Assembly: GCA_020062265.1 (NCBI GenBank)
Contig: JAGUWR010000038.1
Location: 1 to 17,655 of the forward strand
DNA from: Minisyncoccota bacterium
GTDB taxonomy: Bacteria; Patescibacteriota; Minisyncoccia; UBA6257; GWB1-50-10
DNA length: 17,655 bases
Direction of reading: 5' to 3'
Shown piece by piece: positions 1 to 17,655 of this stretch (its first letter is position 1; each line of letters opens with the position of its first letter). A model generated the notes under the pieces. The model was not told the origin of the DNA. It did no database searches and worked only from the letters and a program-made list of their open reading frames with translations. Made by a program: the position numbers and the translations under genes.

Positions 1-2
1 AC

Positions 3-1307: not shown

Positions 1308-1309
1308 CC

Positions 1310-1846: not shown

Positions 1847-1854
1847 CGGAAATT

Positions 1855-3765: not shown

Positions 3766-5135
3766 ATTTGTTGGAAAAAATATCATCATTGGCCAAGCGC
3801 CGAGGTTTTATTTATCCCGGTTCGGAAATATACGGCGGTCTGGCCGGTTTCTACGACTGGGGGCATTTGGGCAATGAGCTTAAATTTAACATCAAGCAGA
3901 CCTGGTGGCGGGATACGGTTCAGCTTCGTGATGATGTCGTCGGTCTTTCCGCGGCCATCGTTATGAATCCGAAGGCCTGGGAGGCCTCGGGGCATCTTAC
4001 CGGTTTTTCGGACGTTCTGGTGGAATGCCCGAAGTGCCACAAGCGTTTCAAAGCCGATGAGCTTGGAAAGAAAAATGAGTCATTGGTCTGCGTTGAATGC
4101 AGTGAAATTTTTAAAGGTAAGGCTCGTCAGTTTAATTTGATGTTTAAGACATTCGTGGGGGCGGCCGAGGAGGCGGCAGCGGTTGCCTATCTCCGTCCCG
4201 AAACTGCCGGCGGCATTTTCGTAAATTTTAAGAATGTTCTCCAAACAAACCGGTTGAAAATCCCTTTTGGTATTGCCCAGATCGGGAAGGCCTTTCGGAA
4301 CGAGATAAACCCGCGCGATTTCGTGTTTCGCATCCGCGAGTTTGAACAAATGGAACTGGAGTATTTTATTCACCCCGTTAGAAATAATCCCGTTAAGCAG
4401 GATGCCGCCGTGCCACCTCAGGCGGCAGGGCGGATTTCTAACGGGGTAAAACCTCAAACACCCACAGAATGGCTAAGTTATTGGGTGGGCAGAAGACTTA
4501 AATGGTACGAATCAATCGGATTAAAAAACATCCGTCTCCGAGAACAGAGTCAAGAAGAGCGCGCCCACTATTCGCGGGCAACCGTAGATATTGAATATAA
4601 ATTTCCGTTTGGCTGGCAAGAAATTGAAGGCGTGGCCAATCGCGGCGATTTTGACCTTACTGCCCAGATGAAAGTTTCTGGTAAAGATTTAAACTATTTT
4701 GACGAGGAAACAAAAGAACAATACACGCCTTATGTGATTGAACCTTCGGCTGGTGTGGAAAGGATTGCCTTGGCAGTTCTTTGTGAGGCCTATCTTGAGG
4801 AAAAAGAACGGATTGTGCTAAAACTTAATTCCAAGCTCGCGCCTTACAAAGCGGCAGTATTTCCGCTTTTAGCGAACAAAGAAAAATTAGTAGAGCTGGC
4901 TCGTTCAATTTACGATGATTTGAAAACTGAATTTATGACGGCTTGGGACGATCGCGGCAATATCGGTAAGCGTTACTACAGCCAGGACGAAATCGGCACG
5001 CCCTTCTGTATTACCGTTGATTTTGAAAGTTTGGAGAAAAATGATGTAACCGTTCGGGGCAGGGACACGATGAAACAAGTGAGGGTGGGAATTAGGGAAT
5101 TAAAAGAATATCTCAAAAAGAAGTTAGTGAAATAA
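3762..5135 (+). CDS. glyS: Glycyl-tRNA synthetase, homodimeric class II type
   Basis: 457 residues. It charges tRNA-Gly in translation. All class II landmarks are visible: the N-terminal RRGFIYPGSEIYGG block, a four-cysteine zinc site (CPKC...CVEC, about residues 89-113), the RPETAGGIF glycine-pocket segment, motif 2 (FRNEINPRDFVFRIREFEQMELE), and motif 3 (EPSAGVERIALAVL). A C-terminal anticodon-binding domain follows (from about residue 360, ending with the RGRDTMKQ segment). The layout is the single-chain alpha2 type (archaeal/eukaryotic and some bacterial), not the alpha2beta2 GlyQ/GlyS type. About 26 residues after motif 2 (204-229) are encoded by a nested palindromic element (4373-4446) and match nothing in the enzyme core. 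Its stop codon directly abuts the ATG of the M16 protease gene. Confidence 0.93.
   Translation: MNLLEKISSLAKRRGFIYPGSEIYGGLAGFYDWGHLGNELKFNIKQTWWRDTVQLRDDVVGLSAAIVMNPKAWEASGHLTGFSDVLVECPKCHKRFKADELGKKNESLVCVECSEIFKGKARQFNLMFKTFVGAAEEAAAVAYLRPETAGGIFVNFKNVLQTNRLKIPFGIAQIGKAFRNEINPRDFVFRIREFEQMELEYFIHPVRNNPVKQDAAVPPQAAGRISNGVKPQTPTEWLSYWVGRRLKWYESIGLKNIRLREQSQEERAHYSRATVDIEYKFPFGWQEIEGVANRGDFDLTAQMKVSGKDLNYFDEETKEQYTPYVIEPSAGVERIALAVLCEAYLEEKERIVLKLNSKLAPYKAAVFPLLANKEKLVELARSIYDDLKTEFMTAWDDRGNIGKRYYSQDEIGTPFCITVDFESLEKNDVTVRGRDTMKQVRVGIRELKEYLKKKLVK
4373..4446 (+). repeat. In-frame palindromic element inside glyS
   Basis: A 74-bp element with perfect 13-bp terminal inverted repeats, CCCCGTTAGAAAT at 4373-4385 and its reverse complement at 4434-4446. 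It also contains a nested 7-bp stem, TGCCGCC at 4403-4409 with GGCGGCA at 4421-4427. The whole element is read through in frame as a linker (PVRNNPVKQ... ISNGVK) after motif 2 of GlyRS. The structure resembles small non-autonomous palindromic elements that enter coding sequence in frame, as Rickettsia palindromic elements do. No flanking target duplication is obvious. Confidence 0.85.
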
Positions 5136-6401
5136 ATGAATTTCCAAAAAATAAAATTTGACAATGGGCTGAGGTTAATTTTAGCGCCCCAGCCGGTGAG
5201 TTCGGCAACCACGGTGATGGTTTTGGTTGAGGCCGGTTCTAAATATGAAACTAAGGAAATCAACGGTCTTTCTCATTTTTTAGAGCATATGTGTTTTAAA
5301 GGCACGACCAAACGACCGACTCAACTCGCCATCAGCACCGAGCTGGATAATTTAGGCGCCGAATACAATGCTTTTACCAGCCGGGAATATACCGGCTATT
5401 ACGCTAAAGCCCGCAATGAAAATTTTGACAAGATTTTAGACGTCGTTACTGATATGTATCTTAATCCTCTTTTTGACCCTGAAGAAATTAATAAAGAACG
5501 CGGCCCGATTATTGAAGAAATTAATATGTATGAAGATCTGCCGATGCAGAAAGTTTCGGAATTGTTTTTTAATTTAGTTTATGGCGACCAGCCGGCCGGC
5601 TGGAGCGTAGCCGGGACCAAAGAAAATATTCTTCGGCTCCAACGCGAAGATTTTATAAATTATCGAAAGGCCCACTATGTAGCGCAATCAACAATCGTTA
5701 TTGTTGCCGGCGGGTTTTCCGCCGAAAGCGTTGAAGAAAAAATCAGAAATGTTTTTACGGCGCTAAAAGTAAACAAGAAATCGCCTAAAGCGCCAGTCGT
5801 TGAAGAGCAGGGAAAAGCGCGTTTTTCCCCTGCTTATAAAACAACTGATCAGACTCATTTGGTTTTGGGTTTTCGAGCTTTTGACGTTCACGATGAAAGA
5901 CGTTTTGCACTCGGTATTTTAGCTGATATTCTGGGCGGCGGCATCAGTTCCCGACTTTTCCAGAAAATCAGAAGCGAGCTCGGCGCCGCTTATTACATTA
6001 GCGCTTCGCCCGACTTTTATACTGACCACGGCCTTTTTTTGATTTCGGCCGGAGTGAGCAATGATAAAGTTGAAGAGGCGGTAAGGATTGCGTTAAGCGA
6101 GTGTTTCAAACTTAAAGAAAATCTAATCGACGAGCGTGAGTTAAGAAAAGTTAAAGAACATCTAATTGGTCATTTATTTTTATCGCTGGAAAGCTCTGAC
6201 GAGTTTGCTGTTTTTTACGGCAGTCAGGAAATTTCAGGCAATCCTCTTATGGTGCCTCAAGTTCTTGCTCAGCGAATCCAAGCAGTCACCGCCGAAGAGA
6301 TTCGTAAGGTTGCTCGTTTTATTTTTGAAAACAACCGCCTCAATCTCGCTTTCATCGGTCCCTTGAAAGATAAGGATTTTGGTAACATACTTAAGATATA
6401 A
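5136..6401 (+). CDS. M16-family zinc metallopeptidase (processing peptidase/PqqL-like)
   Basis: 421 residues, a single two-lobed half unit of the M16B (mitochondrial processing peptidase-like) type. The inverted zinc motif HxxEH is at His47-Glu50-His51 (HFLEHM), with the third ligand Glu127 exactly 76 residues after His51, the classical spacing. The C-terminal lobe keeps the conserved SSRLFQKIRSELGAAYYISA segment (about residues 270-290), which carries the Arg/Tyr substrate-binding pair. It is therefore predicted to be an active peptidase rather than a non-catalytic subunit. No signal peptide is visible, so it probably acts in the cytoplasm on small or unfolded peptides; substrates are unknown. 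The ATG follows the glyS stop with no gap and no Shine-Dalgarno, which suggests translational coupling. Confidence 0.9.
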   Translation: MNFQKIKFDNGLRLILAPQPVSSATTVMVLVEAGSKYETKEINGLSHFLEHMCFKGTTKRPTQLAISTELDNLGAEYNAFTSREYTGYYAKARNENFDKILDVVTDMYLNPLFDPEEINKERGPIIEEINMYEDLPMQKVSELFFNLVYGDQPAGWSVAGTKENILRLQREDFINYRKAHYVAQSTIVIVAGGFSAESVEEKIRNVFTALKVNKKSPKAPVVEEQGKARFSPAYKTTDQTHLVLGFRAFDVHDERRFALGILADILGGGISSRLFQKIRSELGAAYYISASPDFYTDHGLFLISAGVSNDKVEEAVRIALSECFKLKENLIDERELRKVKEHLIGHLFLSLESSDEFAVFYGSQEISGNPLMVPQVLAQRIQAVTAEEIRKVARFIFENNRLNLAFIGPLKDKDFGNILKI

Positions 6402-6402
6402 G

Positions 6403-6480
6403 CTGATGCGAATATACGAATAATGCGAATCTCCGAATGACGTATTCGTATGCGCCTATTCGCTAAGGCTATTCGCATAC
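6403..6480 (+). repeat. Imperfect inverted-repeat spacer built on (A/T)GCGAAT/ATTCGC words
   Basis: The whole 79-nt spacer between the M16 protease and the PerM-like gene consists of repeated words: ATGCGAATA, TACGAATA, ATGCGAAT and CCGAATGACG on the left, then TATTCGTATGCG, CTATTCGC and CTATTCGCAT on the right. The left and right halves are reverse-complementary, with ATGCGAATA near 6406 pairing with TATTCGCAT at 6470-6478, so the transcript could fold into an interrupted hairpin. There is no following T-run, so it does not look like a classical terminator. It abuts the next ATG at 6481. Confidence 0.65.
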
Positions 6481-7503
6481 ATGGAGAAAGAAACCCCCAT
6501 CAATATTTCTTGGAATACGCTCTGGCGAGTGCTTTTCTTTGTTTTTCTTGCGGTTCTGCTCTATCTTGCCCGAGAAGCAGTCGTGGTTCTACTTGCTTCA
6601 GCTGTCATTTCACTTGGTCTTGAGCCATTGGTTGGTTTTCTTGAAAAGCGGCGGATTCCGAGAATTTTGGGCGCCCTTATTGTTTTTTTTCTCGTCCTTT
6701 TGATTTTCGCCGCCGCGATTTACCTCGTGGTGCCGGTGATTGCAAGCGAGATAGGAAGTTTTTTTGAACAACTTAACCAGGCATTTTCGTCAATTTTTGG
6801 TTTCAGCATATCAAAGGCATCACTTGAAGTTTTTAAAGGAGGGTTGGATAAGGCGCTTGAATTCGTCCGTACCAGCAACATTTCGATCGGCGGCGCGGTT
6901 TCCTCAATGTTTAATAATCTCATCCTTGTTGCGGCAACCATCCTTGTCACTTTCTATCTTATGGTGGAGAAAGATGGTGTTGAAAGATTTTTAAGAGCAA
7001 TTTTGCCGGACGCTTACGAGCGTACCATCCTTACCATTTTTACCAAATTCAAGATTAAGATTAGGCGGTGGATGCTCGCTCAATTGGTATTGAGCGCGGC
7101 GGTCGGGGTCCTTACTGGTCTCGGCGCCTGGCTTCTCGGGATACGTTACCCGGCTGTTATCGGAATACTCGCCGCCGTTTTTGAGATTGTGCCGGTAATC
7201 GGTCCGGTTCTTGTCGGTATTATTGCTTTTCTCATTGCTATTTCTGATTCACTCCTTCTTGGTCTTTACGCTCTTATTTTCTTTACCATCGTTCAGCAAT
7301 TCGAAAGTCACGTTCTTACCCCGATCATTATTGGTCGGACAATGAGGATCCATCCGGTTCTGGTTATTGTTTCTCTTATCGCCGGCGCTCAAGTAGCCGG
7401 TTTCGTCGGCGTTCTTCTGGCTGTGCCGATTGCGGTGGCGGTCCAAGAAGTGGTGGGATATCTTTCTGAAAGCAAATCCCATCGTCCTCGCCTTGATATA
7501 TGA
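6481..7503 (+). CDS. AI-2E/PerM-family integral membrane transporter
   Basis: 340 residues with about seven or eight membrane segments: two near residues 12-50, one near 60-84, one near 143-163, then a cluster from about 198 to 325. The soluble loop between the third and fourth segments (about 85-140, with amphipathic helices) and the family-typical tail (GPVLVGIIAFLIAI, QQFESHVLTPIIIGRTMRIHPVLVIVSLIAG, GFVGVLLAVPIAVAVQEV) identify the AI-2E transporter-like (PF01594) family. Characterised members are thought to export autoinducer-2 or to act in ion or other solute antiport; the substrate cannot be assigned here. It overlaps metG by 4 nt (ATGA), so the two are probably translationally coupled. 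No ribosome binding site is visible upstream, only the inverted-repeat spacer. Confidence 0.88.
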   Translation: MEKETPINISWNTLWRVLFFVFLAVLLYLAREAVVVLLASAVISLGLEPLVGFLEKRRIPRILGALIVFFLVLLIFAAAIYLVVPVIASEIGSFFEQLNQAFSSIFGFSISKASLEVFKGGLDKALEFVRTSNISIGGAVSSMFNNLILVAATILVTFYLMVEKDGVERFLRAILPDAYERTILTIFTKFKIKIRRWMLAQLVLSAAVGVLTGLGAWLLGIRYPAVIGILAAVFEIVPVIGPVLVGIIAFLIAISDSLLLGLYALIFFTIVQQFESHVLTPIIIGRTMRIHPVLVIVSLIAGAQVAGFVGVLLAVPIAVAVQEVVGYLSESKSHRPRLDI

Positions 7504-8942
7504 CCCAGAAAAAAATCTGTATTACTACCGCGATTGATTATATCAACGATGTAATTCATATTGGCCATGCCTACCAAAAGGTAGCGGCTGACGTTTTGGC
7601 TCGTTATTATCGTATTCTTAACGGTAAAGATAATGTTTTCTTTTTGACCGGTACTGATGAGCATGGTCTTAAAGCTGAAGAATCAGCCAGAGAATCAAAA
7701 AAAAACGTTAAAGAATTTGCTGATGAGATCGCCGCCGCTGATAAAAAAGAGCAAGATTTGCTTAATGTTTCGTATGATCGTTTCATTAGGACCACCGATT
7801 CCGACCATATTGTCGCCGCAGTTGATTTTTGGAAAAGAATTAAAGAAAGTGGCGATATTTATTTAGACGACTTTACCGGTAAATATTGCAGCGGTTGCGA
7901 ATCATTCAAAACCGAATCCGAGCTGGAAAACAATCATTGTCCTCTTCATCTAAAAGAAGAAATTAAGCTCGCCACTGAAAAGAACTATTTTTTTCGCTGG
8001 AAACGCTACGTCCCTTTTTTAAAAGAACATATTACCAGCCACCCTGAATTTGTTTTGCCGTCAAGCCGCCGAAATGAAGTTTTGGCTTTTGTGGATAAAA
8101 TTGAAGATATAACGATTTCCAGAAGAAAAGAAGCGGTGTCCTGGGGGATTGAAGTGCCGGGGGATCCGGACCAGCTAATATATGTTTGGTTTGAGGCTTT
8201 GATAAATTATCTAACCGGGGCTTTACCAATCGGTTTTTGGGGTGAGGATACAAAAATCATTCATATTCTTGGCAAGGATAATCTCCGTTGGCACGCCCTT
8301 CTTTGGCCAGCGATGTTAAAAAGCGCTGGTTATCCTTTACCGGCTACTATCTTTGCTCATGGTTTCCTCATTTTTAACGGTCAAAAAATTAGTAAATCAC
8401 TTGGGAATATAACCCGACCCAGCGAACTCGTTTCAAAATACGGAGCTGATCCGGTCCGATATTACCTTTTGGGGCGGACAAATTTTGCCGAGGACAATGA
8501 TGTTACTATTTCTAAATTAGAAGATGCTTATAATGGCGATTTGGCTAATGGTTTAGGCAACTTTGCCGCTCGGGTGTTAACCTTAGCCGAGAAAATTGAA
8601 TTGAAAATTAATCAAATTTTTGATGATGAGATTAAAAAAGAGATTGAAAAAACGAAAGCGGCGGTTGCCGAGAAATTAAACGAATTTAAATTTCATGAAG
8701 CCCTTGCCGTCATTTGGAATTTAATTTCTTTTAGCGATCGCTATATCAATGAAAACAAACCCTGGGAGACCAGGAATGAAAAAGTGATGTTTGGGTTAGT
8801 GGTGGTTTTGGATAATGTTGCCGCCCTGCTTGCTCCGTTTATGCCCCAAACTGCCGAGAAAATTACCAAAAGCATTATTTGGCAGGACGGCAACTTAGAA
8901 ATCAAAAAACCAGAGATTCTTTTTCCGAGGTTAAATAAATGA
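7500..8942 (+). CDS. metG: Methionyl-tRNA synthetase (without C-terminal dimerisation domain)
   Basis: 480 residues. This class I synthetase charges initiator and elongator tRNA-Met. The HIGH signature is exact (residues 20-23) and the KMSKS loop is KISKS (296-300). The connective peptide has a single zinc knuckle of the CxxC...CxxH type (CSGC, CPLH, about residues 128-146), as in Thermus-type MetRS. The alpha-helical anticodon-binding domain runs from about 340 to the end, with the WNLISFSDRYINENKPWE helix. The protein stops without the tRNA-binding-like C-terminal domain (about 110 residues) that dimerises many bacterial MetRS, so it is probably monomeric. It overlaps both neighbours by 4 nt (ATGA at each end) in a PerM-metG-tatD block; metG beside tatD is a common bacterial pairing. 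Confidence 0.95.
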   Translation: MTQKKICITTAIDYINDVIHIGHAYQKVAADVLARYYRILNGKDNVFFLTGTDEHGLKAEESARESKKNVKEFADEIAAADKKEQDLLNVSYDRFIRTTDSDHIVAAVDFWKRIKESGDIYLDDFTGKYCSGCESFKTESELENNHCPLHLKEEIKLATEKNYFFRWKRYVPFLKEHITSHPEFVLPSSRRNEVLAFVDKIEDITISRRKEAVSWGIEVPGDPDQLIYVWFEALINYLTGALPIGFWGEDTKIIHILGKDNLRWHALLWPAMLKSAGYPLPATIFAHGFLIFNGQKISKSLGNITRPSELVSKYGADPVRYYLLGRTNFAEDNDVTISKLEDAYNGDLANGLGNFAARVLTLAEKIELKINQIFDDEIKKEIEKTKAAVAEKLNEFKFHEALAVIWNLISFSDRYINENKPWETRNEKVMFGLVVVLDNVAALLAPFMPQTAEKITKSIIWQDGNLEIKKPEILFPRLNK

Positions 8943-9832
8943 CGCTAAGGTTTTTTGACGCTCACACGCACGTAAATTTCGCGGCTTTCGAGAAAGATTA
9001 TAAAGAGGTTATTGACCAGGCTCTTGCGGTCGGTGTGGGGGCGGTTAACGTAGGAACCCAGAAGGACACTTCTCGCCGGGCGATTGAGATCGCCCATGAG
9101 TTCGAGAATGAACCGGTTTACGCCACGATCGGTCTCCATCCGATTCACACCTCGAAGTCCTACCACGACCCGCATGAATTGGGAGGGAGTGAGGAAGCAA
9201 AAAGTTTCACTTCCCGCGGCGAAGAATTCGACTACGATTATTACAAAAATTTAGCTTTGGATTCTAAGGTCATAGCGATCGGTGAGTGCGGCCTCGATTA
9301 TTACCGGGCAGCAAGCGGCAAGAGACAAGAGACAAATAAGAAGCAACGCGATGCGTTCATAAAACAAATTGAGCTCGCTCACGAAGTTAAAAAACCTTTA
9401 ATGATTCACTGCCGTTCCGCCTTTCCTGAACTTATTCAATTACTAGTTACTAATTACCAGTTACTAGTTACTCCTCACCCGGGCATCATCCATTTTTTCT
9501 CCGGTACTAAAGAAGACACTCAAAAACTCCTTGAGCTGGGCTTTTTTTTCACTTTTGGCGGCTTGATTACTTTTGCCCGCGATTACGACGAAGTTATAAA
9601 ATCAATCCCTCTAGGAAGAATTCTTTCCGAGACTGACGCGCCTTACGTCGCTCCCGAGCCCTACCGGGAGAAACGCAACGAACCGGCCTATGTCATTGAG
9701 GTCGTCAAAAAACTTGCGGAAATTAAAGACATTCCGTTAGAAAAAACGCGAAGTCAAATCTTTGAAAACACGAAGCGAGTATTCAACATTGATTTTGTAA
9801 ATCAACAGTCCCTATCTAGCGGAATTTTTTAA
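8939..9832 (+). CDS. tatD: TatD-family metal-dependent deoxyribonuclease
   Basis: 297 residues with a TIM-barrel amidohydrolase fold. All metal ligands are visible: HTH (residues 9-11, DAHTHV), the glutamate of IGECGLDYYR, histidines in MIHCRSAF and IIHFFSG, and the aspartate of SETDAPYV. E. coli TatD is a 3'-5' exonuclease active on single-stranded DNA and RNA and is linked to repair of oxidative damage; a similar role is inferred. The protein is longer than the usual 255-265 residues because of extra loops: an acidic stretch around residues 75-102, a RQETNKKQR insert (about 127-136), and a repeat-encoded TNYQLLVT segment (about 167-178). The last two come from low-complexity DNA repeats. 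The ATG overlaps the metG stop (ATGA). Confidence 0.93.
   Translation: MTLRFFDAHTHVNFAAFEKDYKEVIDQALAVGVGAVNVGTQKDTSRRAIEIAHEFENEPVYATIGLHPIHTSKSYHDPHELGGSEEAKSFTSRGEEFDYDYYKNLALDSKVIAIGECGLDYYRAASGKRQETNKKQRDAFIKQIELAHEVKKPLMIHCRSAFPELIQLLVTNYQLLVTPHPGIIHFFSGTKEDTQKLLELGFFFTFGGLITFARDYDEVIKSIPLGRILSETDAPYVAPEPYREKRNEPAYVIEVVKKLAEIKDIPLEKTRSQIFENTKRVFNIDFVNQQSLSSGIF
9320..9347 (+). repeat. AGAGACA-type purine repeat inside tatD
   Basis: Short degenerate repeat (AGAGACA, AGAGACAAATA, AGAAGCAA) read in frame as KRQETNKKQ directly after the GLDYYR block. It is the same family as the repeat at 10531-10567 in leuS. It lies in a variable loop and adds roughly ten residues. Confidence 0.6.
9437..9471 (+). 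repeat. Five tandem YARTTAC heptamers inside tatD
   Basis: Five uninterrupted 7-nt units, CAATTAC, TAGTTAC, TAATTAC, CAGTTAC and TAGTTAC, all fit the consensus YARTTAC. They are translated as a TNYQLLVT-like segment between the MIHCRSAF and IIHFFSG metal-ligand blocks. The same heptamer builds the 4x CAATTAC array in leuS (12784-12811). Confidence 0.85.
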
Positions 9833-10014
9833 AAGTTATTTTCAGAGTTTTTTCCATGCCGCGGAGTTTACCTGACAATTTATATGTAAATACGGGATAA
9901 ACGGATTTTCGGCACTACTCGATTGAATAGTACCGGAGGGCGAGGCCGGTAAAAAAGCTGTCATCAGTAGAATGTTTGAGAAAAAAACAAAAACCCGTTA
10001 GAGTGGTAGTATTC
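9833..10014 (+). promoter_or_regulatory. leuS leader region with weak promoter and small hairpin
   Basis: This 182-nt gap separates tatD from leuS. A possible sigma-70 promoter is TGACAA (9873-9878), an 18-nt spacer and GATAAA (9897-9902); both boxes are weak. A 6-bp stem, TACCGG at 9931-9936 with CCGGTA at 9946-9951, encloses a 9-nt purine-rich loop and is followed by A residues rather than T, so it is not an intrinsic terminator. A 9-codon open frame (9972-10001, ATG to TAG) precedes the leuS start and has no leucine codons. No T-box sequence (the AGGGTGG/ACCGCG type) could be found. The octamer ATAGTACC at 9927-9934 recurs in a palindrome inside leuS at 12233-12240. Confidence 0.35.
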
Positions 10015-13000
10015 ATGCCTAAATACGATTTTTCTAAAATAGAGCGGAAATGGCAGAGAATTTGGCGGCAGAAGAAGATTTATGAGCCAAATCTAAAGAA
10101 AGCTAAAAAGCCATTCTACAACTTGATGATGTTTCCTTACCCTTCAGCCGAAGGTCTCCATGTCGGGAATATGTACGCTTTTACCGGCGCTGATATTTTC
10201 GGCCGTTATATGCGGATGAAGGGATACAATGTTTTTGAGCCGATTGGGTTGGATGGATTTGGGATTCATTCTGAAAATTACGCCTTACAGATCGGCGTTC
10301 ACCCGATGAAACAGGCAAAGATTTCTAAAAAAAGATTTTATAAACAACTTGAGATGATTGGGAATGGATTTGCTTGGGATAAGCGATTAGAGACGTATGA
10401 CCCGGAATACTACAAATGGACCCAGTGGATTTTTGTGCAGATGTTCAAACACGGGTTAGCTTATAGGAAAAAGCAGGCGGTCAATTGGTGCCCTTCGTGC
10501 AAGACCGTGCTTGCCGATGAGCAAGTTTTACAGAAGAGACAAGAGACAAGAGATAAGAGGCAAGAGGTTTTAGTTGGGGCTTGTGAGCGCTGTGAGACGC
10601 CAGTGGTGAAAAAAGAATTAGAGCAGTGGTTTTTCAAAATTACTAAATATGCCGAAAAACTCCTTAAAAATCTGGATAAAATTGATTGGTCAGAGAAAGT
10701 AAAAATCGCCCAGCGGAATTGGATAGGGGAAAGCGAAGGCGCGCTAATTAATTTCGAGATCGCGGGCGGCGTTGCGCCTTCTTATGTTTTACTGCACGGA
10801 TTTACCGGATCACCCAATGCCAATTTTTTTCCTTGGCTCAAGAAGGAATTGGAGAAGAGGGGGGCTAAAGTTTTCGTTCCGGCTCTGCCTAACACGGATA
10901 ACCCCAGTATTCCGGAACAGGTGGAATTTGTATTGAAAAATGCGGAATTCAACGAGAACACCGTTTTGTTGGGTCACAGTTTAGGGAGCGTTGTCGGGCT
11001 GAAGGTTATAGAAAAACTCGACCACCCGATAAAGAGATTTGTTTCGGCTGCCGGGTTTCTCGAGCCGAAATTCAAGGATCACTCGCGGCCATTCGAAAAA
11101 TCATTCGATTGGAAATTCGATTTCGAAAGAATAAAAAAGAACGTTCGCACAATAATGATTTTAAGGGATAGCTCCGACGATGTCGTTCCCGAAATCCAAG
11201 CGGATAAAATTCAGCAAGCGATCGGCGGCGAAATCATCGATTTCAAGGCCGAAGATAACCATATTTGCGGCGAGGTGGAGCCAGTCGTTTTGAAGAATTG
11301 CATTGGCCTGATAAAAGTTTTCACTACCCGCCCCGATACGCTTTTCGGCGCTACTTATATGGTTTTGGGGTCGGAACATTCGCTCGTAGAAAATCTCAAA
11401 TCTCAGATCACAAATTACAAACAGGTTGCCGATTATGTCAAAAAAACAAAAAACAAATCCGAGGCGGAGAGAATTGAAGAAGGAAAAGAAAAAACAGGTG
11501 TTGAGTTAAAAGGAATTAAAGCCATAAATCCGGCGAACAATGAAGAAATTCCGGTGTGGGTGGCTGATTATGTGTTATCCGATGTTGGCGCCGGCGCGAT
11601 TATGGCGGTGCCGGCGCACGACCAAAGAGATTACGAATTCGCCAAGAAGTTCAACTTACCCTTAATCCCAGTTATCAAACCCAATATAACGACATCGCAA
11701 GTCGTTAGAGTGGGAAATGCGTATGAAGGCAGGGGAGTTTTAATAAATTCGGGAAAATTTAACGGAATGGATTCAGAAAAAGCCAAATGGGGGATTGTTG
11801 AATTTGTGGGTGGCGAGAAAAAGACGCAATACCGTTTGCGTGATTGGCTTATATCCCGCCAGCGTTATTGGGGACCACCCATGCCAGTAATTTTTTGCGA
11901 GAATTGCAAAAAATTAGCGGAATCCTATAAGTCTTATAAGTCCAAGAGATCCTATAGGTCTTATAATCAAGGCGAGTTAGAAAATCCGGGCTGGATTGCG
12001 GTGCCGGGAAAAGATTTGCCGGTAAAACTTCCTTATGTTAAGGATTTTCGGCCTAAAAGCAAAGGCGAATCGCCTCTATCGTCAGTTAAAGAATTTTATG
12101 AAACAAAATGCCCAAAATGCGGCGGTAAAGCCCGACGGGAAACTGACGTATCAGATACCTTTCTTGATTCTGCTTGGTACTATCTCCGTTATCCTTCAAT
12201 CCGTTCTGCCCGCGCCGGTACTATCCCATGGGATAGTACCATTACAAAAAAATGGCTGCCGGCTGGGATGTATATTGGCGGGGCCGAACACGCAGTTCTT
12301 CATCTTCTTTATGTAAGGTTTTTAGCAATGGCTTTGAAAGACATGGGTTATCTCCATTTTGAAGAACCCTTCCCGAAGTTCCGGGCTCACGGCCTTTTAA
12401 TCAGTGAAGGGGCAAAAATGTCCAAGTCCAAGGGGAACGTGGTCAATCCCGACGAATACATTAAGAAATTCGGCGCTGATGCCCTCCGGATGTATTTGAT
12501 GTTTCTGGCGCCGTTTGAGCAGGGCGGGGATTTCCGGGATGCGGGTATTTTAGGAATTACGCGGTTTTTGGAAAGAGTTTGGAAGCTTTTTCATTCACGA
12601 ATAAACACGAATATAGGCACAAATAACACGAACAATATTCGTGCGATTAGTGGGCAAATTAGTGAACATTCGCGGATAGTGCATCGCACCATTAAAAAAG
12701 TTACCGAAGACATCGAGAATTTCCGTTATAACACCGCCATCAGCGCTTTGATGATTCTCTTAAATGAGATGGAAAAACACCCTCAATTACCAATTACCAA
12801 TTACCAATTACTTTTAAAGCTTCTCGCTCCGTTCGCGCCGCATTTAGCCGAAGAAATTTGGCAGCAACTTATATCAGCATCAATCAGTCAAAATCAGCGT
12901 AAATCAGCGTTTGAATCAATACATAGAGAACCTTGGCCGAAATATGACCTCAAGCTTATCAAAGAAGAAACTTTCATGCTTATTATTCAGATAAATGGTA

Positions 13001-13155
13001 AAGTACGCGACCAAATTGAGGTAAATAAAATTATCACCCAAAAAGAAGCCGAGGCGTTGGTTTTTGAACGAGAGCGAGTTAAAATGTATTTGAACGGCAA
13101 GAAACCGAAGAAAATTATTTTCGTGCCTAGCCGTTTAGTTAATATCGTGATGTAA
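10015..13155 (+). CDS. leuS: Leucyl-tRNA synthetase with an alpha/beta serine hydrolase inserted in the editing domain
   Basis: 1046 residues from the ATG at 10015, chosen because MPKYDFSKIERKWQRIW is the family N terminus; an in-frame TTG at 9976 adds only unrelated residues. Synthetase landmarks are HVGN (HIGH) at 49-52, a zinc site (CPSC...CERC), the CP1 editing segments FTTRPDTLFGATYMVL and GAGAIMAVPAHDQRDYEFA, a second cysteine cluster (CENC...CPKC), DTFLDSAWYYLRYPS, and KMSKS at 801-805, then the anticodon domain. Removing the insert leaves about 863 residues, a normal LeuRS size. Between INFEI and IKVFTTRPDT lies a whole RBBP9/YdeN-like hydrolase (residues about 250-432) with HGFTG, GHSLG and DDVVP motifs. 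At least six shorter repeat islands also lie in loops. Both synthetic and editing sites look intact, so the protein should charge tRNA-Leu. Confidence 0.95.
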   Translation: MPKYDFSKIERKWQRIWRQKKIYEPNLKKAKKPFYNLMMFPYPSAEGLHVGNMYAFTGADIFGRYMRMKGYNVFEPIGLDGFGIHSENYALQIGVHPMKQAKISKKRFYKQLEMIGNGFAWDKRLETYDPEYYKWTQWIFVQMFKHGLAYRKKQAVNWCPSCKTVLADEQVLQKRQETRDKRQEVLVGACERCETPVVKKELEQWFFKITKYAEKLLKNLDKIDWSEKVKIAQRNWIGESEGALINFEIAGGVAPSYVLLHGFTGSPNANFFPWLKKELEKRGAKVFVPALPNTDNPSIPEQVEFVLKNAEFNENTVLLGHSLGSVVGLKVIEKLDHPIKRFVSAAGFLEPKFKDHSRPFEKSFDWKFDFERIKKNVRTIMILRDSSDDVVPEIQADKIQQAIGGEIIDFKAEDNHICGEVEPVVLKNCIGLIKVFTTRPDTLFGATYMVLGSEHSLVENLKSQITNYKQVADYVKKTKNKSEAERIEEGKEKTGVELKGIKAINPANNEEIPVWVADYVLSDVGAGAIMAVPAHDQRDYEFAKKFNLPLIPVIKPNITTSQVVRVGNAYEGRGVLINSGKFNGMDSEKAKWGIVEFVGGEKKTQYRLRDWLISRQRYWGPPMPVIFCENCKKLAESYKSYKSKRSYRSYNQGELENPGWIAVPGKDLPVKLPYVKDFRPKSKGESPLSSVKEFYETKCPKCGGKARRETDVSDTFLDSAWYYLRYPSIRSARAGTIPWDSTITKKWLPAGMYIGGAEHAVLHLLYVRFLAMALKDMGYLHFEEPFPKFRAHGLLISEGAKMSKSKGNVVNPDEYIKKFGADALRMYLMFLAPFEQGGDFRDAGILGITRFLERVWKLFHSRINTNIGTNNTNNIRAISGQISEHSRIVHRTIKKVTEDIENFRYNTAISALMILLNEMEKHPQLPITNYQLLLKLLAPFAPHLAEEIWQQLISASISQNQRKSAFESIHREPWPKYDLKLIKEETFMLIIQINGKVRDQIEVNKIITQKEAEALVFERERVKMYLNGKKPKKIIFVPSRLVNIVM
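10531..10567 (+). repeat. AGAGACA/AGATAAG purine repeat inside leuS
   Basis: Near-tandem copies (AAGAGAC, AAGAGAC, AAGAGAT, AAGAGGC, AAGAGG) are read as KRQETRDKRQE between the two CxxC halves of the LeuRS zinc site (residues about 173-185). It is the same family as the repeat at 9320-9347 in tatD. Confidence 0.75.
10762..11310 (+). other. RBBP9/YdeN-like serine hydrolase domain inserted in LeuRS
   Basis: About 183 codons (LeuRS residues 250-432). The domain begins YVLLHGFTGSP...FFPWLKKELEKRG, the first strand, oxyanion-hole loop and helix of the RBBP9/YdeN (PF06821) alpha/beta hydrolases. It continues with VPALPNTDNP, the nucleophile elbow GHSLGS (Ser322), the acid in DSSDDVVP (Asp388), and the DNH motif (His416), all in family order and spacing. 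Its length matches a free-standing family member (about 175-190 residues), so it appears complete and catalytically competent. It replaces the short hairpin turn that normally joins the first strand of CP1 to IKVFTTRPDT. Base usage does not stand out from the host gene. The substrate is unknown; RBBP9-type enzymes cleave small esters or amides. Confidence 0.88.
11923..11967 (+). repeat. CCTATAAGTC-type tandem repeat inside leuS
   Basis: Units CCTATAAGT, CTTATAAGT, CCAAGAGAT, CCTATAGGT and CTTATAAT are read in frame as SYKSYKSKRSYRSYN (residues about 637-651), just after the CENC zinc half-site. In reverse complement the word ATAAGTCC matches the spacer repeat before glyS (3727-3765). Confidence 0.75.
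12217..12240 (+). repeat. 24-bp perfect palindrome inside leuS
   Basis: GGTACTATCCCA followed immediately by its exact reverse complement, with no spacer. It encodes GTIPWDST (residues about 735-742) in the variable loop after the WYYLRYPS block. The outer octamer, ATAGTACC on the right arm, also occurs in the leuS leader (9927-9934). Confidence 0.85.
12592..12676 (+). repeat. CACGAAT-type repeat cluster with inverted repeat inside leuS
   Basis: Several near-copies of CACGAATA (CACGAATAAA, CACGAATATA, CACAAATAA, CACGAACAA) are followed by a reverse copy, forming a 9-bp inverted repeat, CACGAATAT at 12606-12614 and ATATTCGTG at 12635-12643. Degenerate ATTAGTG/AACATTCGCG words follow. It is read in frame as a polar NTNIGTNNTNN linker (residues about 860-888) in the anticodon-binding part. 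Confidence 0.7.
12784..12811 (+). repeat. Four perfect tandem CAATTAC heptamers inside leuS
   Basis: Four exact copies of CAATTAC without interruption, translated as LPITNYQLL in the C-terminal helical domain (residues about 924-933). A 7-nt unit rotates through all three frames, so three copies add exactly seven residues; four copies keep frame only together with the flanking bases. It is the same heptamer family as 9437-9471 in tatD. Confidence 0.9.
12873..12910 (+). repeat. AAATCAGCGT-type repeat inside leuS
   Basis: Two perfect copies of AAATCAGCGT (12891-12900 and 12901-12910) are preceded by degenerate ATCAGCATC and AATCAGTCA words. It is read in frame as SASISQNQRKSAF in the loop before the conserved PWPKYD segment near the LeuRS C terminus. 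Confidence 0.7.
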
Positions 13156-13168
13156 GTAATAAATAGAT

Positions 13169-14092
13169 ATGCGGTCCTATTTTGGTTTTGTAATTTTCAT
13201 TTTAGTCATCGGATTTATTGTTTACGTTGCGGTGGCATCCGATAACTTCTTTGATTTCTTTTCATTTAAATTTAGGATTCCGATATCTCCCGTCGCTCCC
13301 ATATCTACTCCTATTAATGATGAAGGGAGCAGGAGAGAGCCGCCAGAAAAGATAGAAACCGAGGAACCGCCGCCACGAGTTGATACTCAACCAAAAGTTA
13401 CGCCGCCTAAAGGTTTTACAATAGAACAACTTTCGCCCTATTACCAGCAAATCAGGATATCATCTGTCAGTCGTGGTTCTTATTTCTTTGATAATTTTAC
13501 ATCACTTGCTCTTTCTGTTTACGGCGCCGGTGAAGCAATTAAGGTCTCCGACTGGCGCGTTCAATCTAATCGCGGTATCATCTTAAGCGTTCCTCGAGCG
13601 GTCAGTGATTACAACCCCAGGATACTTGCTTCAAATGAAGACATTATTTTAGAACCCGGCGGTTCTGTTATTTTCTACAATACTGAGAGTCCTATCCGTT
13701 TCAATTTGCGTCTTAACAAATGCACCGGCTATCTGAATAATATTTATGATTTTAAACCAGATCTTCCTAAAAATTGTCCTTACATTGACCGGAACGAAAT
13801 AATAACTTTCTCCGGCCGGTGCCAATCGTTTATTATGTCCCTTTCAAGCTGCCGCCAACCGACGGCAAATGAAGTGAATGTTTTTAGCACCGAACCGGCT
13901 TGCCGACAACTCTTTGATACTTTGAACTATGGCGGTTGCTATTCCCGCTACCGGCCCGCCGCCGATTTCTTTTCAAAAGAATGGCGAGTATGGCTTGGCA
14001 GCAGTTTTAACGTTGTTAATCTCGACAGAGAACACGACCGGCTCCTTCTTTTTGATAAAAATGGTTTATTAGTTGATGAATATGTTTATTAA
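13169..14092 (+). CDS. Membrane-anchored extracellular protein, cysteine-rich, lamin-tail-like C terminus
   Basis: 307 residues. An N-terminal hydrophobic segment (about 4-26) acts as a signal anchor and is followed by a proline/glutamate-rich linker (about 40-80) and a folded extracellular domain. The linker leads into GFTIEQLSPYYQQIRISSVSRG; then a beta-rich domain contains YGAGEAIKVSDWRVQSN...LEPGGSVIFYN and ends in DRLLLFDKNGLLVDEYVY, which resembles the closing strands of lamin-tail domains (LTD, PF00932). Six cysteines lie between about residues 183 and 256 (KC, NC, RC, SC, AC, GC), which suggests three disulfides outside the membrane. No catalytic motif is visible. A surface or envelope structural role is inferred. 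It starts 13 nt after the leuS stop, so it is probably cotranscribed with it. Confidence 0.7.
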   Translation: MRSYFGFVIFILVIGFIVYVAVASDNFFDFFSFKFRIPISPVAPISTPINDEGSRREPPEKIETEEPPPRVDTQPKVTPPKGFTIEQLSPYYQQIRISSVSRGSYFFDNFTSLALSVYGAGEAIKVSDWRVQSNRGIILSVPRAVSDYNPRILASNEDIILEPGGSVIFYNTESPIRFNLRLNKCTGYLNNIYDFKPDLPKNCPYIDRNEIITFSGRCQSFIMSLSSCRQPTANEVNVFSTEPACRQLFDTLNYGGCYSRYRPAADFFSKEWRVWLGSSFNVVNLDREHDRLLLFDKNGLLVDEYVY

Positions 14093-14110
14093 AGATAGAC
14101 GTTCGTTCGC

Positions 14111-14156
14111 TTTGTTTTCTTTGTCCTCATTTTTTTGTTTTCTTTGTCCTCATTTT
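14111..14156 (+). repeat. Two-copy 23-bp tandem repeat
   Basis: Two identical 23-nt units beginning TTTGTTTTCTTTGTCC, at 14111-14133 and 14134-14156. The second unit runs into the 34-bp palindrome at 14148-14181, so the palindrome's left arm repeats the end of the unit. Confidence 0.9.
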
Positions 14157-14181
14157 TTCGCCATATGGCGAAAAAATGAGG
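14148..14181 (+). repeat. 34-bp perfect palindrome
   Basis: The left arm CCTCATTTTTTCGCCAT (14148-14164) is followed with no spacer by its exact reverse complement (14165-14181). It could extrude as a cruciform or fold as a hairpin in RNA. T residues lie inside the arms but none follow the 3' arm, so it is not a normal intrinsic terminator. A binding site for a dimeric protein or a mobile palindromic unit are the alternatives. Confidence 0.9.
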
Positions 14182-14223
14182 TAGGGGTATATTCTTATCA
14201 ATATTTAAACACTGGCCGTTGCT

Positions 14224-14262
14224 GTTATGACGCGTCATAACGCTATCCTAGAGCATAGCGTT
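14224..14262 (+). repeat. 18-bp palindrome overlapping an 8-bp stem-loop
   Basis: GTTATGACG and its exact reverse complement (14224-14241, no spacer) overlap a second inverted repeat, AACGCTAT (14239-14246) with ATAGCGTT (14255-14262) around an 8-nt loop. The two structures share AAC at 14239-14241, so they could be mutually exclusive folds. Confidence 0.85.
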
Positions 14263-14322
14263 CTTCTGTCAATCATCGTTCAAATCCGGGATGATGGTCA
14301 TCACCAGTTCATAATTTTTCCT

Positions 14323-14346
14323 CGGGGTCTGACCCCGTGATATAAT
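14323..14346 (+). promoter_or_regulatory. Extended -10 promoter with palindromic possible operator, before endoQ
   Basis: TGATATAAT (14338-14346) is a perfect extended -10 element. Immediately upstream is the 15-bp palindrome CGGGGTC-T-GACCCCG (14323-14337), in the space usually lying between -35 and -10. No TTGACA-like -35 is visible. Initiation about 7 nt after TATAAT would fall on or next to the ATG at 14354, implying a leaderless mRNA. The palindrome could be an operator, or simply a repeated palindromic word. Confidence 0.6.
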
Positions 14347-14353
14347 AGAGTTA

Positions 14354-15637
14354 ATGCCGAAATTTATTGCCGATATCGAAATTCATTCCAAGTATGCCCG
14401 GGCAGTCAGTCCACAAATGGTAATTGAAAATATCGCTCTTTGGGGGGTGAAAAAGGGCATTAAAGTTTTGGGCACTGGCGATTTCACTCATCCCCTCTGG
14501 CTGAAAGATCTTAAAGAGAAATTAGAGCCGGCCGAACCGGGCCTTTTCAAACTGAAAGGGCGGTATCGGCCGAAAAATAATCATTCTTTTGACGCGACGG
14601 CGACCCGGTTTTTATTGAGCGGCGAAGTCAGCTGTATTTATCCCAAAAAAAACAAAGTCCGGCGGGTGCATCATTTAATTTACGCTCCTAGTTTTGAAGT
14701 TGTTGATAAGGTTAATACTCAACTCGGCTGGATAGGAAATTTAAAATCTGACGGCCGGCCCATCATCGGCTTTGATTCCAAAGAACTTTTGGGAATACTT
14801 CTCAGCGCCTCATCAGAATGCGTTTTAATCCCCGCTCACGTTTTTACACCATGGTTCGGATTATTCGGTTCAAAATCCGGCTTTGATTCTTTGGAAGAAT
14901 GTTTTGATGATTTGAGTAAAGAAATTTTTGCCATTGAAACCGGGCTTTCGGCAGACCCAGCTATGTGTTGGCGGATACCTTTTTTGGATAACAAGGCAAT
15001 CATTTCTGGCTCTGATTCTCATTCGCTTCATCGGTTGGGTCGGGAGACCACTATTTTTGGCACCGAATTGTCTTATTCAGCGATTATGAAATCTCTTAAA
15101 AAACGCGACGAAAGTTTTGCCGGGACAATTGAGTTTTTCCCCGAGGAAGGCAAGTACCATTATGATGGTCATGCCGCCTGCGGCGTGAGTTTTTCACCGA
15201 CGGAAACAAAAAAACAAAAAGGCATTTGTCCCAAGTGCGGTAAGCCGGTCACGGTCGGGGTGATGGCCCGAGTTGAAGAGTTGGCAACGGCGGACAGACC
15301 TGGAGGATTCAAACCGGATTGGGCCAAGCCATACTACAGTTTCGTGCCTTTTGACGAAGTTGTTGCCGAGGCCTTGGGAGTAGGCGTCGCTTCCAAAGCG
15401 GTTTGGAAAGAATATAACGAAGCCATTAAAAATTTTGGCTCAGAATTTGGGATTTTAATTGATGTTAGTGAATCTGATTTACGTGTCGGTCTGCCGTCAG
15501 CGATTGCTGAAGGGGTTATCAGAATGCGCCAAGGCAAAGTTCATATTGAGCCGGGCTATGACGGTCAGTATGGCAAGATAAAAATTTTTGAAGATGACGA
15601 GCGGGACGAACTCAATGCCCAAAAGAGTTTATTTTAG
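14354..15637 (+). CDS. Endonuclease Q family protein (PHP-type deaminated-base endonuclease)
   Basis: 427 residues, matching the size of the EndoQ/TIGR00375 family (about 420). PHP metal-site motifs appear in order: DIEIHSKYARAVSP (His11), LGTGDFTHPLW, LSGEVSCIY, IPAHVFTPWFGLFGSKSGF, ETGLSADPAMCWR and SGSDSHSLHRLG. A zinc-finger-like segment follows (HAACG...CPKCG, about residues 274-299), then the conserved C-terminal part (PFDEVVAEALG, GLPSAIAEGVIRMRQGKVHIEPGYDG). Characterised EndoQ (Pyrococcus furiosus, Bacillus pumilus) nicks DNA 5' of uracil, hypoxanthine, xanthine and AP sites, starting a repair route separate from uracil glycosylases. The same is inferred here, with all ligands kept. 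A strong extended -10 box sits 7 nt before the ATG, so it probably has its own promoter and a leaderless transcript. Confidence 0.85.
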   Translation: MPKFIADIEIHSKYARAVSPQMVIENIALWGVKKGIKVLGTGDFTHPLWLKDLKEKLEPAEPGLFKLKGRYRPKNNHSFDATATRFLLSGEVSCIYPKKNKVRRVHHLIYAPSFEVVDKVNTQLGWIGNLKSDGRPIIGFDSKELLGILLSASSECVLIPAHVFTPWFGLFGSKSGFDSLEECFDDLSKEIFAIETGLSADPAMCWRIPFLDNKAIISGSDSHSLHRLGRETTIFGTELSYSAIMKSLKKRDESFAGTIEFFPEEGKYHYDGHAACGVSFSPTETKKQKGICPKCGKPVTVGVMARVEELATADRPGGFKPDWAKPYYSFVPFDEVVAEALGVGVASKAVWKEYNEAIKNFGSEFGILIDVSESDLRVGLPSAIAEGVIRMRQGKVHIEPGYDGQYGKIKIFEDDERDELNAQKSLF

Positions 15638-15639
15638 GG

Positions 15640-15645
15640 TATAAT
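15640..15645 (+). promoter_or_regulatory. -10 box (TATAAT) directly after endoQ, before the small membrane gene
   Basis: A perfect TATAAT begins 2 nt after the endoQ TAG and lies 8 nt before the ATG at 15654. No convincing -35 is present. Transcription starting about 7 nt downstream would leave essentially no 5' leader, the same layout as the endoQ promoter. Confidence 0.5.
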
Positions 15646-15653
15646 TGAGAGTA

Positions 15654-15995
15654 ATGAATTCAACAATAGTTTATTTATTCCAGCGTTTTTTCTACCGGGT
15701 TTTTGAATTTCTGCGGCATTGGTATGTCAAAAGTTTGTTTATTTATTCTCACAACGTCATTAATTTTTTAGAACGCCTTGATAAGAATTTCGCTTTTAAA
15801 ATTACCCTTCGTCATCTCTTTCAGCCGCTTTACAAGGATTATTCAATCATCGGTTACGTTCTTGGTTTCATTTTCCGAACCGGCAGAATTATCGGCGCTT
15901 CTTTTATTTATGTTGTTCTTATCGCCGCCGCGATTTTGATTTACGTCATTTGGCTAGCCGTCCCGATTTTCATTGTTTATAAAATTTTGGCATGA
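15654..15995 (+). CDS. Small integral membrane protein of unknown function, coupled to Clp-like gene
   Basis: 113 residues from the ATG at 15654; an in-frame TTG at 15645 overlaps the TATAAT and is unlikely to be used. The N-terminal half is basic and aromatic (FFYRVFEFLRHWY) and contains an amphipathic stretch, LRHLFQPLYKDYS. One hydrophobic segment lies near residues 63-75 and a longer one near 80-108, so one or two membrane helices are predicted with the charged N terminus probably cytoplasmic. No catalytic motif is seen and I do not recognise a characterised family. Its stop overlaps the start of the membrane-tethered AAA+ gene (ATGA), so the two are probably translationally coupled; a partner or membrane-adaptor role for that ATPase is an inference from this arrangement. 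Confidence 0.75.
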   Translation: MNSTIVYLFQRFFYRVFEFLRHWYVKSLFIYSHNVINFLERLDKNFAFKITLRHLFQPLYKDYSIIGYVLGFIFRTGRIIGASFIYVVLIAAAILIYVIWLAVPIFIVYKILA

Positions 15996-17655
15996 ATCTC
16001 TATTTTAATGAACCAAGACTAAAGTTAAGTGCTTTCGGCGACTTTTGGGTTAGAATTACGACTTATTCAGCTTATCTTATCACTGCCGCCGGCATACCAA
16101 TTTTGGTTACTTCGGATATGGTTCGTCTTCGTTGGCTTGGTTTGCTAATCGCTCTTTTTCTCGGCGATCGTCTTCTTCATCTTGGTCAAGCCGAAAAATC
16201 ATTGACCGAACTTGCCCGCTCTAAACGCAAAGAAGAAAATGTCGTTCTTTATATGACGCCGGCAGCGAAGAAAATTTTGGATTATTCTTACCGTAAAGCT
16301 CGCGTCCTCGGCCAAAACTTTCATCTCGTTCTTTTAAAAGAACTTCTTGGCCATGCCGACGTAAAAGAAATTCTTCGCCGTTTGGAAATTAACCGCAATG
16401 AGTTTGAGCAAAAAATTGATGAATATCTTAATCTCGCCGCCGGCACCAAAGACAAATCAGAACTGCTGGCTAAAATTGAAGAGCTTGGGAGGCAGAGCTG
16501 TCTTGAAGCGATTACTATCCAGGAACGTTTCATCGAAATTCGGAGTATTCTTTCTTCTTTGGTAATTGCGTCTGACCCAACGTTATCAAAACTTTTTGAA
16601 CTTTTTGATATTACCCCGGAAGATTTTGGTGAAGCGGCAATCTTCGGCCGCCATCGGCGCGTTTTTACTTGGGTCAAAGGGCTACCGAAAGTGCTTGGCG
16701 GTTTTGCTCGGCGGCCCCACCGTCTTCGGCAACGAGTTATGAATCGGGCTTGGACGGCCAGGCCGACGCCGCTGTTTGATCAATTCTCAACCGACCTCAC
16801 TAATTTTGCTCGGCACGGCCAAGTTGGTTTGCTTATCGGTCATGAAAAAGAATTTCAGCGGCTCATGGGCATTCTCGCCCGTCCAACCAAGCCAAATGCG
16901 CTTTTAGTTGGCGAACCAGGAGTAGGGAAAACTGCCCTCGTTGCTCATCTTGCCTTCCGTCTGGTCAAAGATTTGGTGCCACCCCCAATTTTCGATCGTC
17001 GTCTCATTTCGCTTAATATCGGCAGTTTGATGGCTAATGCCACCCTTGACATTATGGCCGGCCGTTTAAAGGCAATATCAGATGAGATTGTTTCAGCCGG
17101 TAATATCATTCTTCACATTCCGGATCTTGAAGATCTTTTTAAAAGCGGCGAACGAGGCGGCTTGAGTGCGATTGATATTCTTTTGCCGATTTTTCATTCG
17201 GATTTGTTTCCGGTAGTGGCTGAAGTTTACTCACGTGATTTTAAAAAAAGCTTGGAACCGCGGAGTGACGTTCTTGACCTTTTTGAAGTCGTTCGGGTTG
17301 ATGAAATTAACAAAGAGGAGGCGGTCCGTTTTCTCGTGTACGATACTCTTATTCTGGAACGCCAGTTTAAGATTTTTGTTACTTTCCGGGCTATCAAAAA
17401 AGCGGTTGAATTAGCTCACCGTTATTTCCGGCCTAAACTTCTTCCGGCCAGCGCCGATAATCTTCTCAAACAGTCATTAATTGAAACCGGACGGCGAGGC
17501 GAAAAAATTCTGGGTGAAGAAACTGTGATTGCCGTGGCCGAGGAACGAAGTCGGATTCCTATCCAGCGGGCTGGCGAAGCCGAAACTCAGATTCTCCTTA
17601 ATCTCGAAAAAATCATTCACCAGCGGCTTATTAACCAGGATCAGGCCGTCAAAGC
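15992..17655 (+). CDS. Membrane-tethered Clp-like AAA+ ATPase (3' end outside window)
   Basis: The frame is open from the ATG at 15992 to the window end (554 codons), with no stop. Two hydrophobic segments near residues 22-40 and 48-58 form an N-terminal membrane hairpin. They are followed by a Clp-N-like helical domain (MTPAAKKILDYSYRKARVLGQNFHLVLLKELLG, about 89-121, with a second half near 165-205). AAA+ domain D1 has a clear Walker A, GEPGVGKT (307-314). The Walker B position reads IILHIPDLEDLF (372-383) where ClpC-type proteins have a LFIDELH-like sequence. The arginine-finger position reads LDLF (428-431) instead of ERRF. The end (RIPIQRAGEAETQILLNLEKIIHQRLINQDQAVK) matches the linker into a second AAA+ domain as in ClpC. 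It is probably a double-ring unfoldase acting at the membrane. Confidence 0.87.
   Translation, partial: MNLYFNEPRLKLSAFGDFWVRITTYSAYLITAAGIPILVTSDMVRLRWLGLLIALFLGDRLLHLGQAEKSLTELARSKRKEENVVLYMTPAAKKILDYSYRKARVLGQNFHLVLLKELLGHADVKEILRRLEINRNEFEQKIDEYLNLAAGTKDKSELLAKIEELGRQSCLEAITIQERFIEIRSILSSLVIASDPTLSKLFELFDITPEDFGEAAIFGRHRRVFTWVKGLPKVLGGFARRPHRLRQRVMNRAWTARPTPLFDQFSTDLTNFARHGQVGLLIGHEKEFQRLMGILARPTKPNALLVGEPGVGKTALVAHLAFRLVKDLVPPPIFDRRLISLNIGSLMANATLDIMAGRLKAISDEIVSAGNIILHIPDLEDLFKSGERGGLSAIDILLPIFHSDLFPVVAEVYSRDFKKSLEPRSDVLDLFEVVRVDEINKEEAVRFLVYDTLILERQFKIFVTFRAIKKAVELAHRYFRPKLLPASADNLLKQSLIETGRRGEKILGEETVIAVAEERSRIPIQRAGEAETQILLNLEKIIHQRLINQDQAVK

Follow-up and report, generated by a model that had tools for sequence, protein, structure and literature searches.

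A YdeN/RBBP9-type serine hydrolase nested in the editing domain of leucyl-tRNA synthetase recurs across genomes and looks mobile

Bacterial leucyl-tRNA synthetases (LeuRS; family TIGR00396) are represented by structures from Thermus thermophilus (1h3n, 2bte) and Escherichia coli (3zgz). The LeuRS encoded in the stretch of DNA analysed here, 17,655 nucleotides from a Minisyncoccota bacterium (assembly GCA_020062265.1, contig JAGUWR010000038.1, positions 1 to 17,655 of the forward strand; hereafter the window), shares with these a full-length family match, the HIGH and KMSKS signatures, the motifs of the CP1 editing domain and the anticodon-binding and C-terminal domains, but it carries a 181-residue enzyme where the Thermus protein has the four-residue turn 239-242. 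With YdeN of Bacillus subtilis (1uxo) and human RBBP9 (2qs9, 7oex), both of family PF06821, this enzyme shares a minimal alpha/beta hydrolase of about 180 residues, the order of the motifs and the catalytic triad; however, it is only about 20% identical to them in structural alignments and sits inside synthetases. An isoleucyl-tRNA synthetase (IleRS) with an N-acetyltransferase domain (NF040702) likewise combines, judging by the name of the model, a class I synthetase with a small enzyme domain, although both synthetase and enzyme are different ones. In the available parts of a domain-insertion survey (PMC13114784), the LeuRS editing domain is an insertion in the synthetase and no instance of it as a host is given, whereas here the editing domain itself hosts a further enzyme. 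In the open-access literature (PubMed Central), no account was found of a hydrolase or Nudix domain nested in LeuRS, or of a histidine phosphatase in IleRS.

The whole nested gene lies in a single open frame (9976-13155). The frame itself begins with TTG at 9976; the ATG at 10015 is probably the start of leuS, since relatives begin at a comparable place, and gives a product of 1046 amino acids. This protein matches TIGR00396 over its full length with 866.6 bits (curated cut-off 548.4). Its residues 1-251 align with residues 1-238 of T. thermophilus LeuRS (1h3n) and the alignment restarts at residue 433, equivalent to Thermus 243, so that the insert comprises residues 252-432 (nucleotides 10768-11310) and lies before TTRPDT. 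A preliminary description of the locus, made from its sequence, had placed the block at 10762 to 11310; the end stands, and the start was set two codons early, a trivial difference. Without the insert LeuRS has 865 residues, the normal length that had been claimed, and HVGN, KMSKS, TTRPDT and AHDQRD are all present, the synthetase and editing motifs at the positions named before. The GC content of the insert is 46.0%, against 42.5% for the remainder of the gene. The nested gene is the sole PF13603 match at E ≤ 1e-14 in nine related genomes, which bears indirectly on whether it charges tRNA-Leu. No intein family matched the insert at E ≤ 0.001 in Pfam and NCBIfam, and an intein was rejected as its identity. 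Loops of the protein also contain three short in-frame stretches (residues 174-184, 638-650 and 864-874) that are of low complexity and repeat-like, and relatives have similar-looking ones.

Three insertion sites are distinguished below: site A, that of the window, at the start of CP1; site B, late in the LeuRS editing domain; and site C, a later site between IPLIHCDNC and PVPEKNLP. Conservation was scored in 56 distinct nested hydrolases (59 minus three duplicates; mean pairwise identity 39%), a set without three nested copies that do not belong to the main clade and without one incomplete row. The features of the locus are as follows.

10015..13155, + strand: leuS, bacterial-type LeuRS with nested hydrolase (TIGR00396; start by comparison with relatives)
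10015..10767, + strand: N-terminal part of LeuRS to the first CP1 strand, residues 1-251 (alignment to T. thermophilus LeuRS)
10159..10170, + strand: HVGN (HIGH-type) signature, residues 49-52
10768..11310, + strand: nested YdeN/RBBP9-type serine hydrolase, residues 252-432 (PF06821 match at 257-412, alignment, models)
10795..10809, + strand: HGFTG oxyanion-loop motif, His261-Gly265 (His261 in 54 and Gly262 in 48 of the 56 nested copies)
10978..10980, + strand: Ser322, predicted nucleophile in GHSLG (55 of 56)
11176..11178, + strand: Asp388, predicted catalytic acid (42 Asp and 9 Glu among 56 copies; the remaining 5 are all at site C)
11260..11262, + strand: His416, predicted catalytic base (56 of 56)
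11308..11802, + strand: PF13603 LeuRS editing domain (profile positions 22-182 of 185), with TTRPDT and GAGAIMAVPAHDQRD kept
11311..13152, + strand: remainder of LeuRS, that is the rest of CP1, the second part of the catalytic core, and the anticodon-binding and C-terminal domains
12415..12429, + strand: KMSKS signature, residues 801-805

The insert is a complete hydrolase of the YdeN/RBBP9 type, as had been proposed. The Pfam search suggested earlier returned PF06821 with 29.1 bits for the insert alone and 24.2 bits for the whole protein (cut-off 22), and PF00561 scored 35.1 and 28.3 bits, respectively (cut-off 25.8). The closest solved structures by sequence were YdeN (1uxo, E = 2e-10) and RBBP9 (E = 4.3e-5 and 4.8e-5). 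An alpha/beta hydrolase fold is also predicted: the modelled insert fits YdeN/RBBP9, which were its best fold match, and the model of the whole protein has a mean pLDDT of 85. Foldseek on the full model gave LeuRS entries only among the 50 matches listed and was uninformative about the insert. Ser322, Asp388 and His416 follow the family order, and their earlier numbering agrees with the alignment to RBBP9 and to the nested copies. Asp388 aligns with the second Asp of the RBBP9 motif TDDPFLP, which we take to be the catalytic Asp138. Of the 56 nested copies, 51 have an acid at position 388 and all have Gly324. In an alignment of 25 nested LeuRS, every protein has the His and an acid (Asp in 20, Glu in 5), and 24 retain the nucleophile. 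A serine hydrolase, predicted in its fold and probably active, is built into the first beta-hairpin of CP1 of a presumably working LeuRS.

The recurrence of the insertion and its apparent mobility are not visible from the window alone. Searched with the insert, 102 of 244 genomes of the order gave a match. Twelve matches lay in frames of more than 400 amino acids, and all 12 were LeuRS, 11 with the hydrolase at site A and one (G024) at site C. LeuRS homologues with the insertion, for which the preliminary description had suggested a search, thus occur in related genomes; the insert is interrupted by a contig end in two of the 11 site-A loci (G019 and G119). A scan of a named genome collection returned 50 loci, 41 of which were read: 28 LeuRS with the hydrolase at site A (four on incomplete frames), two Magasanikbacteria LeuRS at site C, one Nomurabacteria IleRS and 10 free-standing hydrolases; seven of the 31 nested loci were taken to be the same as loci of the 244-genome set. 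The site-A carriers include Liptonbacteria, Uhrbacteria, Kerfeldbacteria, Taylorbacteria and Doudnabacteria as well as archaea (five Pacearchaeota records and one Woesearchaeota record), whose LeuRS align with the bacterial ones. An even sample of 379 genomes from the phylum gave matches at E ≤ 1e-15 in 132 of them. The top 29 matches, the window included, were all LeuRS (25 at site A, four at site C; three of the 29 duplicate sequences of the named collection). Six weaker matches lay in frames of more than 860 amino acids, five of them LeuRS with the hydrolase at site C (L193, L194, L198), at site B (L195) or upstream of CP1 (L196), and one a non-synthetase.

This recurrence also bears on the suspicion that the nested gene is an artefact of assembly or annotation, which the fragmented state of the window genome (50 contigs, 67.8% complete) might raise. 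The same junction is found in many independent assemblies, including G039, listed as a single contig, where it lies inside a contig of 840,672 bases. Because independent genomes share it, chance and assembly error are excluded; an assembly join was rejected as an explanation, and we regard an artefact of any kind as scarcely conceivable. Some irregular frames were seen alongside: the frame around one nested LeuRS (G567:C14) is given as 24,995 amino acids, at least part of which is explained by long runs of N; the LeuRS of L088 (G059:C18) is split into two open frames of 786 and 310 amino acids; and the LeuRS editing domain matches of G183:C10, G185:C10 and G186:C35 contain an in-frame TGA, perhaps a recoded stop.

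In a tree of 62 hydrolase rows, from which L027, identical to L028, had been dropped, 32 nested domains (29 at site A, two at site C and one in IleRS) formed one clade with support 100/99. None of the 27 free-standing relatives sampled fell within it, setting the nested clade apart from YdeN and RBBP9; these relatives were the best matches of the 244-genome and named-collection scans, less than a full survey. In the 379 phylum genomes, no free-standing match outranked the 29 nested ones. Three other nested hydrolases (L032, L033, L034) came from other branches of the tree, so that recruitment occurred more than once. The tree of the LeuRS core was a quick one (LG+G4, SH-aLRT support only) of 92 rows, mostly picked for a large frame or an insert and hence non-random; on it, the distribution of the site-A hydrolase required at least 15 changes, 10 of them forced by starred branches. 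A single insertion inherited with LeuRS is therefore not supported.

One pair of sister genomes bears on the same question. G135 carries the insert and G134, of the same genus, lacks it (SH-aLRT 99 on the LeuRS core tree). The hydrolase of G135 clusters (99/97) with its counterparts from the window, L105, L108 and L043, although its host LeuRS has HVGH where the window, L105 and L108 have HVGN; L043 lacks that part. Compared in 60-base windows, the G135 and G134 genes are 77-93% identical before the insert, mostly 87-93%. The four windows after it show 78, 52, 67 and 78%, the next eleven 80-93% with a single exception at 58%; over the last third, identity is mostly 70-87%. In the protein stretch after the insert, the values for G135 against G134 were 78 against 62, 62 against 54 and 80 against 75% identity to L115; 70 against 62, 62 against 51 and 85 against 78% to L105; 65 against 65, 59 against 51 and 82 against 72% to the window; and 66 against 71, 59 against 59 and 78 against 68% to L053, which lacks a hydrolase. 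In this stretch G135 is thus nearer than G134 to L115 and L105, and inconsistently so to the window or L053, at most a faint hint of an imported flank.

Together, the discordant trees and the sister pair support a spread of the hydrolase between LeuRS genes of bacteria of the candidate phyla radiation (CPR, Patescibacteria) and DPANN archaea, independently of the remainder of the gene, and movement of such a cassette appears to be the simplest reading of both. Recombination in the conserved flanks may provide the route. Judged by sequence comparison, the cassette has the look of a mobile unit with conserved catalytic residues and a tie to editing synthetases. Since its active site is kept while it apparently moves between lineages, the domain probably does useful work in LeuRS.

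What this work might be is suggested by the chemistry of its relatives. RBBP9 requires the alpha-amine to be free, and it traps Leu/Ile, Phe, Tyr and Trp (PMC8866121). Homocysteine thiolactone is formed by LeuRS and IleRS (PMC5370406) and is reportedly a substrate of BPHL, an alpha/beta hydrolase (PMC4198189). By analogy with these, mischarged tRNA or released by-products are reasonable substrates. The Ser-Asp-His hydrolase held by the synthetase would then hydrolyse esters, thioesters or amides of hydrophobic aminoacyl groups whose amine is free, most likely those of misacylated tRNA or of by-products that the synthetase releases, e.g., homocysteine thiolactone, and would serve as a second clean-up site alongside normal CP1 editing. 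The chemistry of RBBP9 makes it plausible that aminoacyl esters or by-products would be cleared in this way. Taken as a whole, the reading that the insert is an active YdeN/RBBP9-type hydrolase, spreads between LeuRS genes as a cassette and forms a second clean-up site for aminoacyl groups is the one we tentatively favour, at a little under an even chance. The interpretation in the preliminary description is partly supported: the nested architecture is confirmed, and a second hydrolytic site for aminoacyl esters next to the editing site is a proposal.

A number of observations weigh against this reading, and the first of them concern the active site. L117 has Ile at the nucleophile position, the only nested copy lacking Ser, and five copies, all at site C, have no acid at 388 and retain an Asp at 385. 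They would suit a domain that is folded and catalytically idle and that shapes CP1 or tRNA binding. However, the Ser is present in 55 of the 56 copies and the His in all of them, and both are among the most conserved positions of the insert; a catalytically dead domain is therefore unlikely, and we consider a purely structural role very improbable. In addition, the HDxRD editing motif is intact in 25 of 25 aligned nested LeuRS, so the hydrolase is not replacing editing. The residues by which RBBP9 holds the amine are not kept in any clear way: RBBP9 Ser76, adjoining the nucleophile, aligns with Leu323 of the window, and of the 56 copies 36 have Leu in this column, 16 have Phe and one has Ser. 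Nor is the hydrolase general. Only 12 of the 244 genomes have it nested and the majority of LeuRS in the order lack it, so that it is dispensable for charging in general. A distant YdeN-like hydrolase also occurs in the 992-amino-acid non-synthetase frame (L197, G413:C16), between glycosyltransferase-like segments with repeat-like linkers. Finally, other enzymes share its sites: a HAM1/ITPase domain lies at site A in L083 (Pfam E = 9.4e-16) and, by eye, in L074, an ASCH domain at site A in L075 (4.9e-9) and, by eye, in L069 and L079, and a Nudix domain at site B, with Pfam matches for both Nudix-like segments tested (L048 and L040).

The patchy and apparently moving distribution would also be explained by a resistance or detoxification module, in which the hydrolase destroys an aminoacyl-nucleotide-like LeuRS inhibitor made by neighbours. 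We know of no such compound for these organisms, which counts against this explanation. A natural antibiotic directed at LeuRS is known, agrocin 84/TM84 (PMC5059758), and a structure involving it appears among the Foldseek matches of the full model. Overall, a resistance function appears unlikely.

Nested enzymes are by no means confined to the hydrolase. A strict Nudix box was found in 23 of the 33 LeuRS having a site-B segment of more than 110 amino acids, and five LeuRS (L036, L039, L040, L042, L043) contain hydrolase and Nudix together. The insert of L068 at site C is ASCH-like by eye and has no Pfam match. Other site-B inserts of about 100-150 amino acids were noticed in L055, L064, L080, L082 and L104, those of L082 and L104 being alike by eye; no Pfam family scored above its cut-off for the site-B segments of L055, L064, L080 and L082. 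The window genome's own IleRS (L154:248-3844:-, G000:C47; a frame of 1199 amino acids) contains a nested histidine phosphatase (PF00300, E = 1e-33, residues 515-681), and a Nomurabacteria IleRS (L130:386-5104:+, Gx485_bin132; 1573 amino acids; TIGR00392, 741.5 bits, cut-off 621.4) holds three nested enzymes: a low-molecular-weight (LMW) phosphatase, a YdeN-type hydrolase and a histidine phosphatase. In 46 of 53 chosen genomes the IleRS profile match was interrupted at position 464-520 and resumed in the same frame; it was unbroken in G078, G107 and G138, G107 having both forms. The two broken IleRS that were read, L154 and L157, both contain an RHG-type phosphatase. Outside the synthetases, a Nudix domain ends a 736-amino-acid protein that by eye resembles a P-loop ATPase (L160, G035:C3).

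These nested enzymes, at all three LeuRS sites and in IleRS, would be expected if the hydrolase were an active passenger with a job unrelated to tRNA charging, placed in a permissive loop of an essential protein, with LeuRS and IleRS of these small genomes serving as general carriers of small globular enzymes. Their variety is the strongest argument for this explanation, and the patchy gain or loss fits it as well. So does a translated palindromic-repeat-like sequence adjoining the nested hydrolase in L169 and L173, from which the junction tolerates extra in-frame DNA. On the other hand, hydrolases of the nested clade were found in LeuRS or IleRS only, and 34 of the 35 matches in frames of more than 860 amino acids in the 379 phylum genomes were LeuRS. 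We rate an unrelated job almost as likely as the clean-up function. A broader proposal is that the editing class I synthetases LeuRS and IleRS of CPR and DPANN organisms are acceptors of a mobile repertoire of nested enzymes (serine hydrolase, Nudix, HAM1, ASCH, and histidine and LMW phosphatases), within which the hydrolase would be a synthetase-specific cassette spread by recombination and acting as a second clean-up site; this is possible, though we consider it less likely than not.

The finding thus concerns an essential translation enzyme that carries a conserved and apparently horizontally moving second enzyme in its proofreading domain, for which no published description was found. Should aminoacyl groups prove to be its substrates, the hydrolase would represent a novel form of proofreading or by-product clearance; should they not, LeuRS and IleRS would be carriers of enzymes in reduced genomes. 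Either way, the nested synthetases provide a ready family of natural fusions.
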